Below are positions 29,780 to 33,917 of a stretch of 64,000 nt of DNA, in pieces. Under the pieces are notes generated by a model. The model was not told where the DNA came from, did no database searches, and worked only from the letters and a program-made list of their open reading frames with translations. The DNA is from Candidatus Ferrigenium bremense (lineage in GTDB: Bacteria > Pseudomonadota > Gammaproteobacteria > Burkholderiales > Gallionellaceae), in NCBI GenBank assembly GCA_019449635.1, contig JAGRPI010000007.1, positions 1 to 64,000 of the forward strand, read 5' to 3'. How positions within the stretch are numbered: position 1 is the stretch's first letter; each line of letters starts with the position of its first letter. Both the position numbers and the translations under genes were made by a program.

Positions 29780-30240
29780 TCAGATCGTGTCCGGCTCCGG
29801 TTTGAAATCTTCACCGTACTTCAACACCGCCCAGGCCAGCCGCGCATTCTTCGCCGCGATGGCGATCACGGCGCGCCAGTAGCCGCGTCGCTCCTGCAAT
29901 GATCTGGCCCAGCGGCTGAAACGATCCTGTTTGTCGCCGATGCTGTTGAGCACGGCACGCGCGCCCATGACCAGCAGGCTGCGCAGGTAGCTGTCGCCGG
30001 CTTTGGTGATCCGTCCCAGCCGCGCCTTGCCGCCGCTGCTGTATTGCCCCGGCACAAGCCCGATCCACGCCGCCACCTGGCGCCCGTTATCAAAATCATG
30101 GCCGTTGCCTATGCTTGCCACAAACGCGCTGGCGGTGACCGGGCCGATGCCGGGGCGTTGCATCAGGCGTTTGCTGCGCGCGTCTTCGCGTGCAGCCTTG
30201 GCGATAAAGGCAAAAGGGGCCAGGCTCGCGCAAGGCAGCC
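29780..30240 (-). pseudogene. IS110-family (IS1111-type) transposase, C-terminal fragment
   Basis: About 153 residues of the C-terminal Transposase_20 domain: RLMQRPGIGPVTASAFVASI, GRQVAAWIGLVPGQYSSGGK and KAGDSYLRSLLVMGARAVLN are diagnostic. The N-terminal DEDD catalytic domain is missing; upstream the frame runs into the eamA gene read in another frame. It is therefore a dead remnant. It stands beside the attC-like sites, which are known targets of the IS1111-attC subgroup. Confidence 0.85.
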
Positions 30241-30245
30241 CCTTT
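30212..30245 (-). terminator. Probable terminator of the EamA transporter gene
   Basis: Read on the minus strand, AAAGGGGC (30245-30238) pairs with GCCCCTTT (30220-30213), and Ts follow. It lies 16 bp after the transporter stop codon and at the junction with the transposase fragment. Confidence 0.55.
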
Positions 30246-30260
30246 AACAGCCATCGAGCT

Positions 30261-31160
30261 TCACTTGCCCGTATCGGCATACAGCCTGCCCGACAGCAGG
30301 CTGGCGGAGACGATGAGCGCCGCGCCGATCCAGTCGCGCAGCCGCATCGCCTCGCCCGCCAGGAAGTAGGCGGCAGCAGCGGCGACCACCAGTTCGGAGA
30401 GGAACAGGACGACCGCGCGATTGGCCGGCATATGGGTGATGCCATACTGCACGTTGAAGCTGACGGCGCACAGCGCGACGCCGATCAGTGCGAGCAGCAG
30501 CCAGGTCTGCGCATCAATCGTCAGCAGTTGGCCCGGCAAACCGCCCTGCCACCACAAGAGCGGCGCGGTCAGCAACGCCGTGCCGAACCACACGCTGCAG
30601 GACTTCGCCTCGACGCTCAGATGCGCGGCACGGCGCGACACGACGTTGGACAGCGCGAAGGCCATGCCCGCCGACAGGCCGAGCCATTCGGCAGGATTGG
30701 CCGGCAGCGGCAGGCCGAGTTGCGGCTCCCAGAGCATGACGAACGCACCGCAGAGGGACAGCGCGACGATGAGGTAGCCGTAGCGGTTGAGCCGCTCATC
30801 GAGCAGCCAGTAGGAAAGCAATACCGTCCAGAGCGGCGCGAGGTAGAACAGCAGCAGCACGCGCATCACCTCGCCGTGCAGCACCGCCAGCACGTAGCCG
30901 AGATTCGTCCAGCCGACGCTCAGCAGCAGCGCCACCGCCCACCAGCCGACCCCGTCTTTGATATGCTGGCGCAGCTCGCGCCAGACACGTGGCAGCATGA
31001 ACGCGCCGCACAGCATCGCCAGCAGGTAGGTGAGCAGCGTCGCCAGCGCGCCGGACACGCCGGCACCCTCCAGCACGCGGTAGGGATACCAGACCAGCCC
31101 CCACACCAGCGCACCGCTCAATACGCCGGCAGTCGGCATCAGATTTTGTTTTGATGGCAC
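30261..31160 (-). CDS. EamA/DMT-superfamily transporter
   Basis: 299 residues with about ten hydrophobic helices in two five-helix EamA repeats (GVLSGALVWGLVWYPYRVL ... WLLDERL; then WLGLSAGMAFALSNVVSRRA ... FLAGEAM). Drug/metabolite transporters of this type export amino acids, nucleosides or other small metabolites. The substrate cannot be assigned. The gene diverges from dapC across a compound repeat. Confidence 0.88.
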   Translation of the reverse strand: MPSKQNLMPTAGVLSGALVWGLVWYPYRVLEGAGVSGALATLLTYLLAMLCGAFMLPRVWRELRQHIKDGVGWWAVALLLSVGWTNLGYVLAVLHGEVMRVLLLFYLAPLWTVLLSYWLLDERLNRYGYLIVALSLCGAFVMLWEPQLGLPLPANPAEWLGLSAGMAFALSNVVSRRAAHLSVEAKSCSVWFGTALLTAPLLWWQGGLPGQLLTIDAQTWLLLALIGVALCAVSFNVQYGITHMPANRAVVLFLSELVVAAAAAYFLAGEAMRLRDWIGAALIVSASLLSGRLYADTGK

Positions 31161-31466: not shown

Positions 31467-32801
31467 ATGAACCCCGACCTGAACCGACTCCAGCCCTATC
31501 CGTTCCAGAAACTCGCCGCGCTGTTCCGCGAGGTCACGCCGAACCCGGACTACCGCGCTATCAGCCTGTCCATCGGCGAACCGAAGCACGCCACGCCGCA
31601 GTTCATCAAGGATGCGCTGACCGCCAACCTCGACGGGCTGGCGAATTATCCCACAACCGCCGGCAGCGACGCGCTGCGCAATGCCATCGCGAACTGGCTG
31701 GCAGCGCGCTACGACATCCCAGCGCCCGACGCAAAGACCCAGGTGTTGCCGGTGAACGGCAGCCGCGAGGCGCTGTTCGCCTTCGCCCAGACGGTGATCG
31801 ACCGCGGCAGAAATGATCCGGTGGTGGTCTGCCCCAACCCGTTCTACCAGATCTACGAAGGTGCGGCATTGCTGGCGGGGGCCACGCCGCATTTTCTCAA
31901 CACGCTGCCGCAGGGCAACTACGCGCTGAACTTCGCGCAACTGCCAGAAGCCGTCTGGCAACGCACACAACTGATCTACGTGTGCTCGCCGGGCAACCCG
32001 ACCGGGCGCGTGATGCCGCTCGCCGAATGGCAGGCGCTGTTCGAGATGTCGGATCGCTACGGCTTCGTGATCGCCTCGGACGAGTGCTATTCGGAGATTT
32101 ACTTCGGTGAAGCGCCATCGGAGGGCGGAGCAGGTGCCCCGCACAGCGGGGATGTGACCCCGAAGATGGATGCAGCGACCGCTACACCTAAATCTGGAGA
32201 CCTGCTGCTCTCTCGCGGGCGCAAGCCCTTGGGCGCATTGCAGGCCGCGCAGCGACTCGGGCGCGGCGACTACCGCAACCTCGTGGTGTTCTCCAGCCTG
32301 TCGAAGCGCTCCAACGTGCCGGGGATGCGCTCCGGCTTCGTCGCGGGCGATGCGGCGGTGATCGCGAAGTTCACGCTGTACCGCACCTACCACGGCTCGG
32401 CGATGAACCCGGCGATCCAGGCCGCCAGTGTCGCCGCGTGGAACGACGAGACGCATGTCGCGGAGAACCGCCGCCTGTACGCGGAGAAATTCGCCAGGGC
32501 GCTGGAGATACTCAGACCGGCGCTGCCGGTCGCACTGCCCGATGCCGGCTTCTATCTTTGGGTAAATCTGTCGGAAACAGAGGGGCGCACGCCCCTTACC
32601 GACACCGCCTTCGCGCAAGCCTTGTATCGCGACTATAATGTGACCGTGTTGCCGGGCAGCTATCTGGCGCGCACCGCCCAAGGGGTGAATCCGGGCGAGA
32701 ATTTCGTGCGCCTGGCGCTGGTCGCCAGTACGGAAGAGACCGTGGAAGCGGCGCAAAGAATAGCTGAATTCAGCCGTAAGTTATTAGACGTAAGTCGTTA
32801 G
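31467..32801 (+). CDS. dapC: Succinyldiaminopimelate transaminase
   Basis: 444 residues; PLP-dependent class I aminotransferase of the succinylase branch of lysine/diaminopimelate synthesis. Marks are LSIGEPKHATPQFI, YPTTAGSDALRNAI, YVCSPGNPTGRVM, ASDECYSEIYF and the Schiff-base Lys in SSLSKRSNVPGMRSG (~280). Residues ~216-252, between DECYSEIYF and PLGALQAAQRLGRG, are extra relative to the family and look like an in-frame insertion. The last residues (LLDVSR) and stop come from a family A repeat. dapD follows, and dapE lies beyond pilU. Confidence 0.92.
   Translation: MNPDLNRLQPYPFQKLAALFREVTPNPDYRAISLSIGEPKHATPQFIKDALTANLDGLANYPTTAGSDALRNAIANWLAARYDIPAPDAKTQVLPVNGSREALFAFAQTVIDRGRNDPVVVCPNPFYQIYEGAALLAGATPHFLNTLPQGNYALNFAQLPEAVWQRTQLIYVCSPGNPTGRVMPLAEWQALFEMSDRYGFVIASDECYSEIYFGEAPSEGGAGAPHSGDVTPKMDAATATPKSGDLLLSRGRKPLGALQAAQRLGRGDYRNLVVFSSLSKRSNVPGMRSGFVAGDAAVIAKFTLYRTYHGSAMNPAIQAASVAAWNDETHVAENRRLYAEKFARALEILRPALPVALPDAGFYLWVNLSETEGRTPLTDTAFAQALYRDYNVTVLPGSYLARTAQGVNPGENFVRLALVASTEETVEAAQRIAEFSRKLLDVSR
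32112..32222. repeat. Probable in-frame insertion within dapC
   Basis: About 111 bp encoding a low-complexity, Gly/Ala/Thr-rich peptide absent from the family core. It holds short inverted repeats (GAGCAGGT with ACCTGCTGCTC; CCCCGC with GCGGGG). No other copy of the same sequence was noticed in the window, so calling it a mobile repeat is inference. Confidence 0.5.
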
Positions 32802-32859
32802 TTGGCGTTGTCCGCTGCGCGGGCTTTGCTTTAACTCACGTCTTACGTCTACCGACTAC
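32776..32859. repeat. Palindromic repeat, family A
   Basis: GTAAGTTATTAGACGTAAGT and the near-complement ACGTCTTACGTCTACCGACT around TCCGCTGCGCGGG. It supplies the final codons and TAG stop of dapC and ends about 25 bp before dapD. Confidence 0.8.
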
Positions 32860-32883: not shown

Positions 32884-33705
32884 ATGGAGCAACTGCAGAA
32901 AATCATCGAACAAGGTTTCGAACGCCGCACCGGCATCACCCCGCACAATGCCGACGCGCAACTCAAGGAAGCGGTCGATGCCGTCATCACCCGGCTCGAC
33001 CAGGGCAAGCTGCGCGTCGCCGAAAAGATCGACGGCCAGTGGGTGACGCACCAATGGCTGAAGAAGGCCGTGCTGCTGTCGTTCCGCATGGAGGATAATT
33101 CCTTCGTCAAGGGCGGTTTCACCAACTACTACGACAAGGTGCCATCCAAGTTCGCCGACTACAACAGTCGCGATTTCCGCGAGGGCGGTTTCCGCGTGGT
33201 ACCGCCGGCCGCGGCGCGCAAGGGCGCGTTCATCGCGAAGAACGTGGTGCTGATGCCCTCCTACGTGAACATCGGCGCCTATGTCGACGAAGGCACGATG
33301 GTGGACACCTGGGCGACGGTCGGCTCGTGCGCGCAGATCGGCAAGAACGTGCATTTGAGCGGCGGCGTCGGCATCGGCGGCGTGCTGGAGCCGGTGCAGG
33401 CCAATCCGACCATCATCGGCGACAACTGTTTCATCGGCGCGCGCTCGGAGATCGTGGAAGGCGTGATCGTCGAAGACAACAGCGTCATCTCGATGGGCGT
33501 GTTCATCGGCCAGAGCACGAAGATCTACGACCGCGAAACCGGCGAGGTGAGCTACGGCCGCGTGCCGGCCGGCTCGGTGGTGGTCAGCGGCAGCCTGCCT
33601 TCCAAGGACGGCAGCTACAGCCTGTACTGCGCGGTGATCGTGAAGAAAGTGGATGAAAAGACACGAAGCAAAGTTGGCATTAACGAGCTATTAAGAGGTA
33701 TCTAG
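32884..33705 (+). CDS. dapD: Tetrahydrodipicolinate N-succinyltransferase
   Basis: 273 residues. Left-handed beta-helix acyltransferase making N-succinyl-2-amino-6-oxopimelate from tetrahydrodipicolinate and succinyl-CoA. Marks are [40 protein letters not shown] and [15 protein letters not shown] (hexapeptide repeats). The last 16 codons (33658-33705) are unusually AT-rich at third positions compared with the rest of the gene, and a second GC-rich version of the same C-terminus is displaced downstream. The in-use 3' end appears foreign. Confidence 0.95.
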
Positions 33706-33780
33706 AGTGCAAACCAGCGATACCCCGCTGAGCGTCTTTCGGCGGAGGCTAATGCGCAAAGCGCGTTATGCCGTAGCCAA

Positions 33781-33828
33781 AAAACGCGCGGCAAGGTCGG
33801 CATCAATGAATTGTTGAAAGGCATCTGA
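33781..33828 (+). pseudogene. Displaced original 3' end of dapD
   Basis: In phase this encodes [15 protein letters not shown]-stop, nearly the same as the dapD C-terminus [15 protein letters not shown]-stop, but at only about two-thirds nucleotide identity, with almost all differences at synonymous third positions. Its codons (CGC, GGC, AAG, GTC, ATC) match the host gene. The 75 bp between the dapD stop and this remnant encode nothing recognisable and contain a GGCTAATGCGC / GCGCGTTATGCC hairpin. Confidence 0.85.
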
Positions 33829-33830
33829 AT

Positions 33831-33917
33831 GCAGACGTAAGGCGTAAGTCGTTAGTTAAAGCAAAAACATGCAGCGACAACATCAACTAATAACTTACAT
33901 CTAACGACTAGCGACTG
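33831..33917. repeat. Palindromic repeat, family A
   Basis: GCAGACGTAAGGCGTAAGTC and the partner ACATCTAACGACTAGCGACT with a short AT-rich centre; it ends 17 bp before pilU. Confidence 0.78.

Follow-up and report, generated by a model that had tools for sequence, protein, structure and literature searches.

A hairpin-bearing unit at the dapD 3' end in Candidatus Ferrigenium bremense and related units at other gene ends

Insertion of IS200/IS605 elements is not known to cause target duplication. The enzymes of these elements and of repetitive extragenic palindromes (REPs) work with a hairpin whose 5' side holds a guide pairing with the cut site (PMC6006769, PMC8266576); IS200/IS605 enzymes choose sites by means of a tetranucleotide guide lying just 5' of the hairpin (PMC6006769). 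REPs sit near stop codons (PMC3733652, PMC12306157), and in one REP system cleavage shifted from CT to CC when the GTAG tag was altered to GTGG (PMC8266576). The sequence considered here, the window, is a stretch of 64,000 nucleotides from Candidatus Ferrigenium bremense (GenBank assembly GCA_019449635.1, contig JAGRPI010000007.1, positions 1 to 64,000 of the forward strand), in which the gene dapD is followed by a second copy of its own 3' end. The present end of the gene belongs to an inserted unit that terminates in H, a short imperfect hairpin with a bulge in its stem. The locus probably represents one insertion of a dispersed, non-autonomous single-strand hairpin element carrying the end of its target gene, and on this evidence the insert is a small but complete member of a widely distributed family and not a deleted island.

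The two ends of dapD

A preliminary description of the window had reported an AT-rich, divergent 3' end of dapD and a second, native-like end downstream, and both observations were borne out. The boundary is sharp. When dapD was compared with four relatives in segments of 48 nt, the body of the gene matched at 38 to 48 of 48 positions, whereas the last segment, copy A in Table 1, matched at 32 to 37. The displaced end, copy B, lies 123 nt downstream of copy A and directly abuts the right edge of H. In the nearest relative, G018, the only dapD end was closer to copy B than to copy A (43 and 37 of 48 nt, respectively); copy B was clearly nearer for that relative only, the margin in the other three being 1 to 2 nt. 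The bounds of the unit were placed where they are because identity falls in the last 48-nt segment and copy B resumes at the A run at 33779-33784. Copies A and B differ at 16 of 48 nucleotides (67% identity) and in only 2 amino acids. Two or fewer changed codons were obtained in none of 20,000 simulations with 16 random changes in the 48-nt dapD end.

Table 1. Features of the dapD locus, in window coordinates
Feature	Position	Strand	Remarks
dapD open reading frame (ORF) as now read (body plus replacement end)	32884..33705	+	TIGR00965, 498.5 bits
Inserted unit, 123 bp	33657..33779	+	Edges uncertain by about 3 nt, in A runs
Copy A, replacement dapD 3' end including stop codon	33658..33705	+	AT-rich codons
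Arm X, start of unit, within the coding end	33657..33670	+	10/14 nt match the reverse complement of X'
Non-coding spacer of the unit	33706..33725	+	
Arm X', degenerate reverse complement of X, adjoining the hairpin	33726..33739	+	
Hairpin H, about 40 nt	33740..33779	+	C-GGC-GGA-GGC-TAATGCGC-AAA-GCGCGTTA-T-GCC-GTA-GCC-A
Copy B, displaced native-like dapD 3' end, outside the present gene	33781..33828	+	43/48 nt to the single dapD end of G018

The two-end event is real yet rare for this gene, because the peptide motifs of the dapD end were doubled only in the genome of the window (G000). KVGINELL occurred twice in 1 of 52 motif-bearing genomes (81 searched), and KVGINEL in 1 of 106 (158 family genomes searched), that genome being included in each count. 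The best 29 relatives' loci each contained a single dapD end. Sites free of H were found at dapD in G018 and G027. G000 has no second full-length dapD, the search for the gene giving one match there.

The proposal that an insertion at the 3' end of dapD had supplied a restoring end was upheld, and its second part, that a large integrative element had since been deleted down to 75 bp, was not. The 75 bp taken for a deletion scar are the spacer, arm and hairpin of the 123-bp unit, and units of similar size recur at other genes. The locus has no integrase between the two dapD ends, and IMG/VR and plasmid and phage records gave no carrier of the unit. A phage attachment site was considered and rejected, as the KVGINELL pattern led in IMG/VR to five stretches of one same unrelated sequence, not dapD. 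The whole unit was likewise absent from the plasmid and phage records, in which 9 and 6 records, respectively, gave short weak matches (E ≤ 10), two of these being ordinary dapD genes. In the search for a donor of the copy A end, 8 of 81 genomes matched at E ≤ 0.1; besides G000, these were other dapD ends (G018, G033 and G052) and matches of 20 to 25 nt. Use of the 3' end of an essential lysine gene as an attachment site had been expected to be uncommon; for the H family, sites at the ends of conserved genes proved common, although at dapD the event was seen once.

Related imperfect palindromic repeats were seen on both sides of dapD, at 32771-32850 and 33840-33917 (TAAGTCGTTAGTT... and ...CTAACGACT). 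Similar repeats occur elsewhere in the genome, and in some relatives they are alike between the same genes.

The hairpin family, its units and their targets

The unit reads, in order, X, the remaining gene end, a spacer, X' and H, followed directly by X'', the displaced original. This layout was found to recur at many gene ends, at one tRNA and in tandem arrays. Unit sizes were similar at dapD (123 bp), a gene for a Dps-like protein (116 to 126 bp), rfbB (125 bp) and tRNA-Ser (127 bp). The relation between the arms was examined in 66 of 191 H units, a proportion that is not a frequency because some of the loci (L275-L294) were chosen for their gene ends. X' matched the reverse complement of its own X at 9.2 of 12 positions, compared with 5.3 of 12 for shuffled partners (maximum of 5.9 in 2000). 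X' also matched X'' at 8.4 of 12, a resemblance that arises because X and X'' derive from the same gene; where these two differ, X' agreed with X 70 times, with X'' 16 times and with neither 19 times. The distance from unit start to H was 17 to 200 nt in the 66 units and 34 to 102 nt in 57 of them; in three, X lay only 17 to 22 nt from H, where the match may be trivial. At the Dps-like gene, pairing was seen by eye between the unit start AAAAAAATGCATG and the unit end CATGCATTTTTTC, and between AAAAGAACGCC and GGCGTTCTTTC.

The consensus of H is C RGY GNA GRC T (variable stem-loop) T GYC GNA RCY A, with a symmetric unpaired GNA/GNA loop, an extra-helical T and a variable terminal stem. The foot is GNAG, with A, G, C or T at N among the copies compared. 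Covariation was counted in 184 distinct H at positions that the search pattern had left free as R or Y. The outer R:Y pair was A-T in 93, G-C in 84 and other in 7; the GRC:GYC pair was G-C in 122, A-T in 54 and other in 8; and the Y:R pair was T-A in 91, C-G in 42, T-G in 40 and C-A in 11. The RG:CY foot was complementary in 177 of the 184 and may have a role in cleavage. The hairpin was more stable on the strand as written (read X'-H) in 166 cases and less stable in 17, with 122 G.T pairs on that strand versus 17 on the opposite one. These analyses, like the arm comparison, used all H loci gathered, including those fetched for gene ends. No Rfam family reached its gathering score in nine H loci. 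A transcription terminator was also rejected as the identity of H, since this misfits the cases at gene 5' ends, such as rfbB, where the favoured H strand is antisense.

The initial pattern search gave nine H in 7 of 81 genomes. These nine, the dapD copy among them, were used to train a covariance model, R1, and the match of R1 to the dapD hairpin (33737-33781, 71.4 bits) therefore follows by construction. At E ≤ 0.01, R1 matched in 37 of 61 genomes, G000 included, with up to 18 matches per genome, and at E ≤ 1 it gave 14 matches in G000. An unbiased survey was made by scanning GTDB species with the hairpin pattern alone, which yielded at least 116 stretches, of which 80 were read and found to contain 90 H. 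In these 80 listed loci, the right flank of 42 of the 90 H was directly repeated, as a diverged copy, no more than 400 bp away with a score above the 95% null (31 above the 99% null), and in 32 of the 42 the repeat began no more than 2 nt from the edge of H. The nulls were obtained by pairing flanks across different loci and are conservative because some of the paired flanks are homologous. An earlier set of 71 H, taken from 93 rows by leaving out 22 (second views of the same places, a tandem copy identical to another and part of the weakest rows), gave 31 above its own 95% null and 22 above its own 99% null.

The titles of 72 of the 80 listed stretches named groups that we take to be Betaproteobacteria; seven gave only Proteobacteria or similar, and one Gammaproteobacteria. 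Isolates among the listed carriers were Methylophilus methylotrophus DSM 46235, Novimethylophilus kurashikiensis and Polaromonas eurypsychrophila. Because the Methylophilus isolate has a unit with a second transketolase end (L196), the units are not an artefact of metagenome assembly. A search up to 6 kb upstream of the 90 H gave no class of longer elements, a single far repeat apart. This is in L212 (CAKKSJ010000504.1), where the right-flank repeat lies 935 bp upstream with a score of 55 and starts 40 nt from the edge of H, possibly a longer unit.

The 14 H of G000 were read by eye, and the gene names were then checked with family models. Five are clearly at gene ends with extra copies of the end: dapD, rfbB, acs, glmS and nuoD. 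At rfbB (dTDP-glucose dehydratase), H lies at C8:35582-35628 with a copy of the gene's 5' end on either side, the two copies having diverged, and is the only other strong match to the dapD hairpin in this genome. The acs end, ILEQLKNAVH and stop, is present in two full copies and a degenerate third, and the glmS end, KPRNLAKSVTVE and stop, in three copies. The genes proB and dksA are weaker gene-end cases, and three H lie in frame inside proteins (glyQ, engB and an acyl-CoA ligase-like gene, the last falling below the family cut-offs). The remaining four are similar to miniature inverted-repeat transposable elements (MITEs), unclear or probably false (C26:10765). An in-frame H in GlyQ, EngB or the acyl-CoA ligase-like protein (L119, L091, L117 and L116) was seen to add a peptide close to GSDITPASGHESSPK.

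Survey targets above NCBIfam cut-offs were transketolase, ftsW (L169, L193), ksgA (L075), murG (L085), mraY (L094), and acs and nuoD (L155, L215). The protein ending in NAWMLRSLLEE is Dps/ferritin-like (PF00210), its best NCBIfam match being Dps, below cut-off, and the KLPLLYAGLTR protein has a VWA domain only (Pfam). In G068, the 5' half of tRNA-Ser is repeated in 127-bp units, each with an H, upstream of the intact tRNA-Ser. The same genome has a MITE-like repeat of about 275 bp with ends GGAAACGCTGAA and two H-like hairpins inside, in four copies 96 to 98% alike (L128-L132); at a fifth place (L132), the core is common and the ends differ. Elsewhere in the window, an ORF on the minus strand at 29780-30445 resembles, by eye, the C-terminal part of an IS110-type transposase.

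Proposed movement and candidate enzymes

In the units, the right junction was found to be fixed, the arm to be specific to its target, the foot to covary and the strands to be asymmetric. It is conceivable, at somewhat under an even chance, that H units form a class of non-autonomous mobile DNA of their own, with its centre in Betaproteobacteria and new to science: cassettes of gene ends moving as folded single strands, in which a long arm complementary to the target serves as a programmable guide. Within that proposal, and with the same reserve, the ends of essential genes may be replaced without loss of function by a cassette that combines integron-like topology with chemistry like that of IS200/IS605. 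Hairpin units that carry gene ends are not named in the open-access titles and abstract openings that were searched, a scope outside which most subscription papers lie.

In the favoured model, the element would move as single-stranded DNA, and H would be recognized in its folded form. Pairing of X' and of the RGY foot with the sequences to be cut would join both ends for excision of the segment that runs from X through the gene end to X' and H. The same arm and foot could then guide re-insertion, in a different cell, into the same gene ahead of an X that matches. Selection would retain those insertions that rebuild the gene, either by a replacement end or by an in-frame insertion, which would explain why the survivors do so. 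Divergence between the ends may be an advantage, as recombination would remove tandem copies that are nearly identical. From the polarity and the resemblance of the foot to a guide, an HUH nuclease, of IS200/IS605 or REP type, is suggested over an integron integrase.

Comparisons at the Dps-like gene bear on movement. Exact end motifs occurred two or three times, 116 to 126 bp apart, in 9 of 71 motif-bearing genomes (299 searched), and G157 and G090 have H-free sites at this gene. Between G150 and G108, the first gene end and spacer were more alike (0.91) than the gene body (0.84), and the second ends were different. The same was seen between G153 and G024, which belong to different genera (0.88 versus 0.81, with different distal ends). 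Few pairs favour the units, however, and mean identity is lower for units (0.71) than for bodies (0.84), so these comparisons are suggestive only.

A number of observations weigh against the proposed movement. At dapD itself, the pairing of X' with X is only partial, and no donor of the copy A end was found in searches of 81 genomes, the family genomes, and plasmid and phage records. In 120 pairs of Dps loci, unit identity exceeded that of the body in only 6, and clearly in 2, and between G150 and G108 the identity of H is 0.74. The genome G101 (L288) has a degenerate second end of the Dps-like gene with no H, which was not predicted unless H has been lost. At glmS and at the Dps-like gene of G024, the middle copy is distinct, whereas the two outer ones (first and third) are nearly identical to each other, so that not every replacement end is foreign and part of the pattern reflects local reshuffling. 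Finally, no enzyme was linked to H when single-tyrosine (Y1) HUH transposase genes and integron integrase (IntI) genes were compared and the ORFs of H loci were only listed. In 6 of the 37 genomes with H, the search gave no Y1 gene, no H was detected at E ≤ 1 in 20 Y1 loci from 8 genomes, and 5 of these loci showed, in a simple scan, GTAG- or GTGG-tagged palindromes of a different kind.

Among 61 genomes, H and Y1 were both present in 31, H alone in 6, Y1 alone in 16 and neither in 8, a weak association that is confounded by kinship. With this weak association and no co-location in the 20 loci, the Y1 transposase was set aside as the mover. Y1 loci L298, L300, L301 and L311 have their own GTAG-tagged palindromes, e.g., GTAGGTCGGGTTAGCGCAGCGTAACCCGAC. 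Overall, a little less than half of the probability is given to an HUH-type enzyme; a tyrosine recombinase is unlikely, and the remainder goes to other candidates.

Alternative readings and comparison with described systems

The alternative that survives best, improbable as it is, is an integron-like cassette in which H and the X arms form an attC-like site and the gene end an attI, with an IntI-type integrase as the enzyme. The topology is the same, in that circularization would let the start of the cassette pair with its own site's arm, and the GNA/GNA loop, extra-helical T and variable terminal stem have parallels in attC sites. IntI scored above the cut-off in 27 of 61 genomes, with two in G000, one of them 3.3 kb from the glmS units, which may be chance. 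Against this, H has no GTTRRRY core and stands at the 3' end on its favoured strand, whereas integrons use the bottom strand. One of the G000 integrases, moreover, already has a classical GTTGGGC site alongside. H counts were independent of IntI (same-genus means of 5.9 in 17 genomes with it and 5.7 in 20 without), and no H was detected at E ≤ 1 within 12 IntI loci (L142-L153). The integron integrase was therefore rejected as the mover, as its presence does not track H and no H lies near it in the 12 loci. In G000, the solo integrase (L154 4825-5757; C8:68812-69753) lies directly upstream of glmU-glmS, and no perfect attC-like pair was found near it; the classical attC-like site adjoins the second integrase (L158; C22:40000-50000). 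By eye, integron integrases lie beside glmU in L142, L147 and L149 and beside a nagZ-like gene in L148, L150 and L151.

There is only a slight chance that H is an ordinary REP-type palindrome near gene ends, the duplicates having arisen later by transformation and homologous recombination. H is REP-like in its GNAG foot and stem bulge, and natural transformation could supply foreign ends. Homologous recombination, however, predicts neither the fixed junction, with the displaced copy starting within 2 nt of the edge of H in 32 of 42 listed loci, nor an X' that follows its own X, and is disfavoured for this reason. Marginally less probable still is a tyrosine-recombinase element (phage, integrative and conjugative element or island) in the dapD 3' end, later deleted to a scar, which has in its favour the usual geometry of a restoring end with a displaced native-like end and against it the complete units of similar size, some in tandem, with the same hairpin at unrelated genes, the lack of a long version up to 6 kb upstream of the 90 H apart from the one far repeat, and the lack of a phage or plasmid carrier of the dapD unit in the records searched.

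If the single-strand hairpin element is real, many conserved genes in a large bacterial group bear ends swapped by a tiny element that repairs the damage it causes, and a long arm that tracks its own target would amount to a natural DNA-guided insertion system. Units at so many housekeeping-gene ends in related bacteria point to a little-known route by which DNA moves and leaves genes intact, and their cassette-like layout offers a testable model for the first formation of integron-type cassettes. In practice, gene ends at H loci are unsuited as neutral markers, and displaced ends can pass for pseudogenes or assembly errors.

Of the described systems, the right ends of IS200/IS605 elements (IS608, ISDra2) share with H a hairpin near the end, guide bases on its 5' side that are complementary to the site of cutting or insertion, and strand-specific folding. 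H units differ in being too short for TnpA and in having no left-end hairpin and no linked Y1 gene; their arm is about 7 to 19 nt long and target-specific, not 4 nt, and their cargo is the end of the target gene. REPs, with their REP-associated tyrosine transposases (RAYTs, or TnpAREP), share a hairpin of similar size, an irregular stem, a tagged 5' foot, a dispersed distribution, often at gene ends, and a presumed mobilization in trans. The relation between tag and cut reported in PMC8266576 is the same as that of the RG:CY covariation in H. The foot of H, however, is GNAG and not a fixed GTAG, the local Y1 loci have other GTAG/GTGG palindromes or none, and a gene-end duplicate is not described in the accessible parts of PMC3733652, PMC12306157 and PMC8266576.

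Integron cassettes (attC × attI or attG) resemble H units in being small and ending in a hairpin site, with arms that pair after circularization and with tandem arrays. H units differ in lacking attC cores (RYYYAAC / GTTRRRY), in using the opposite strand, in occurring at many housekeeping genes with a gene end as cargo and in having no intI at the head of an array; none of the 12 IntI loci has H. Integrative elements that restore gene or tRNA 3' ends share the restoring segment and the displaced native end, whereas H units have no integrase, no cargo and no fixed core, and one hairpin serves many targets. Lastly, as in Rickettsia palindromic elements, some H are translated in frame inside proteins; those elements differ in sequence and host.
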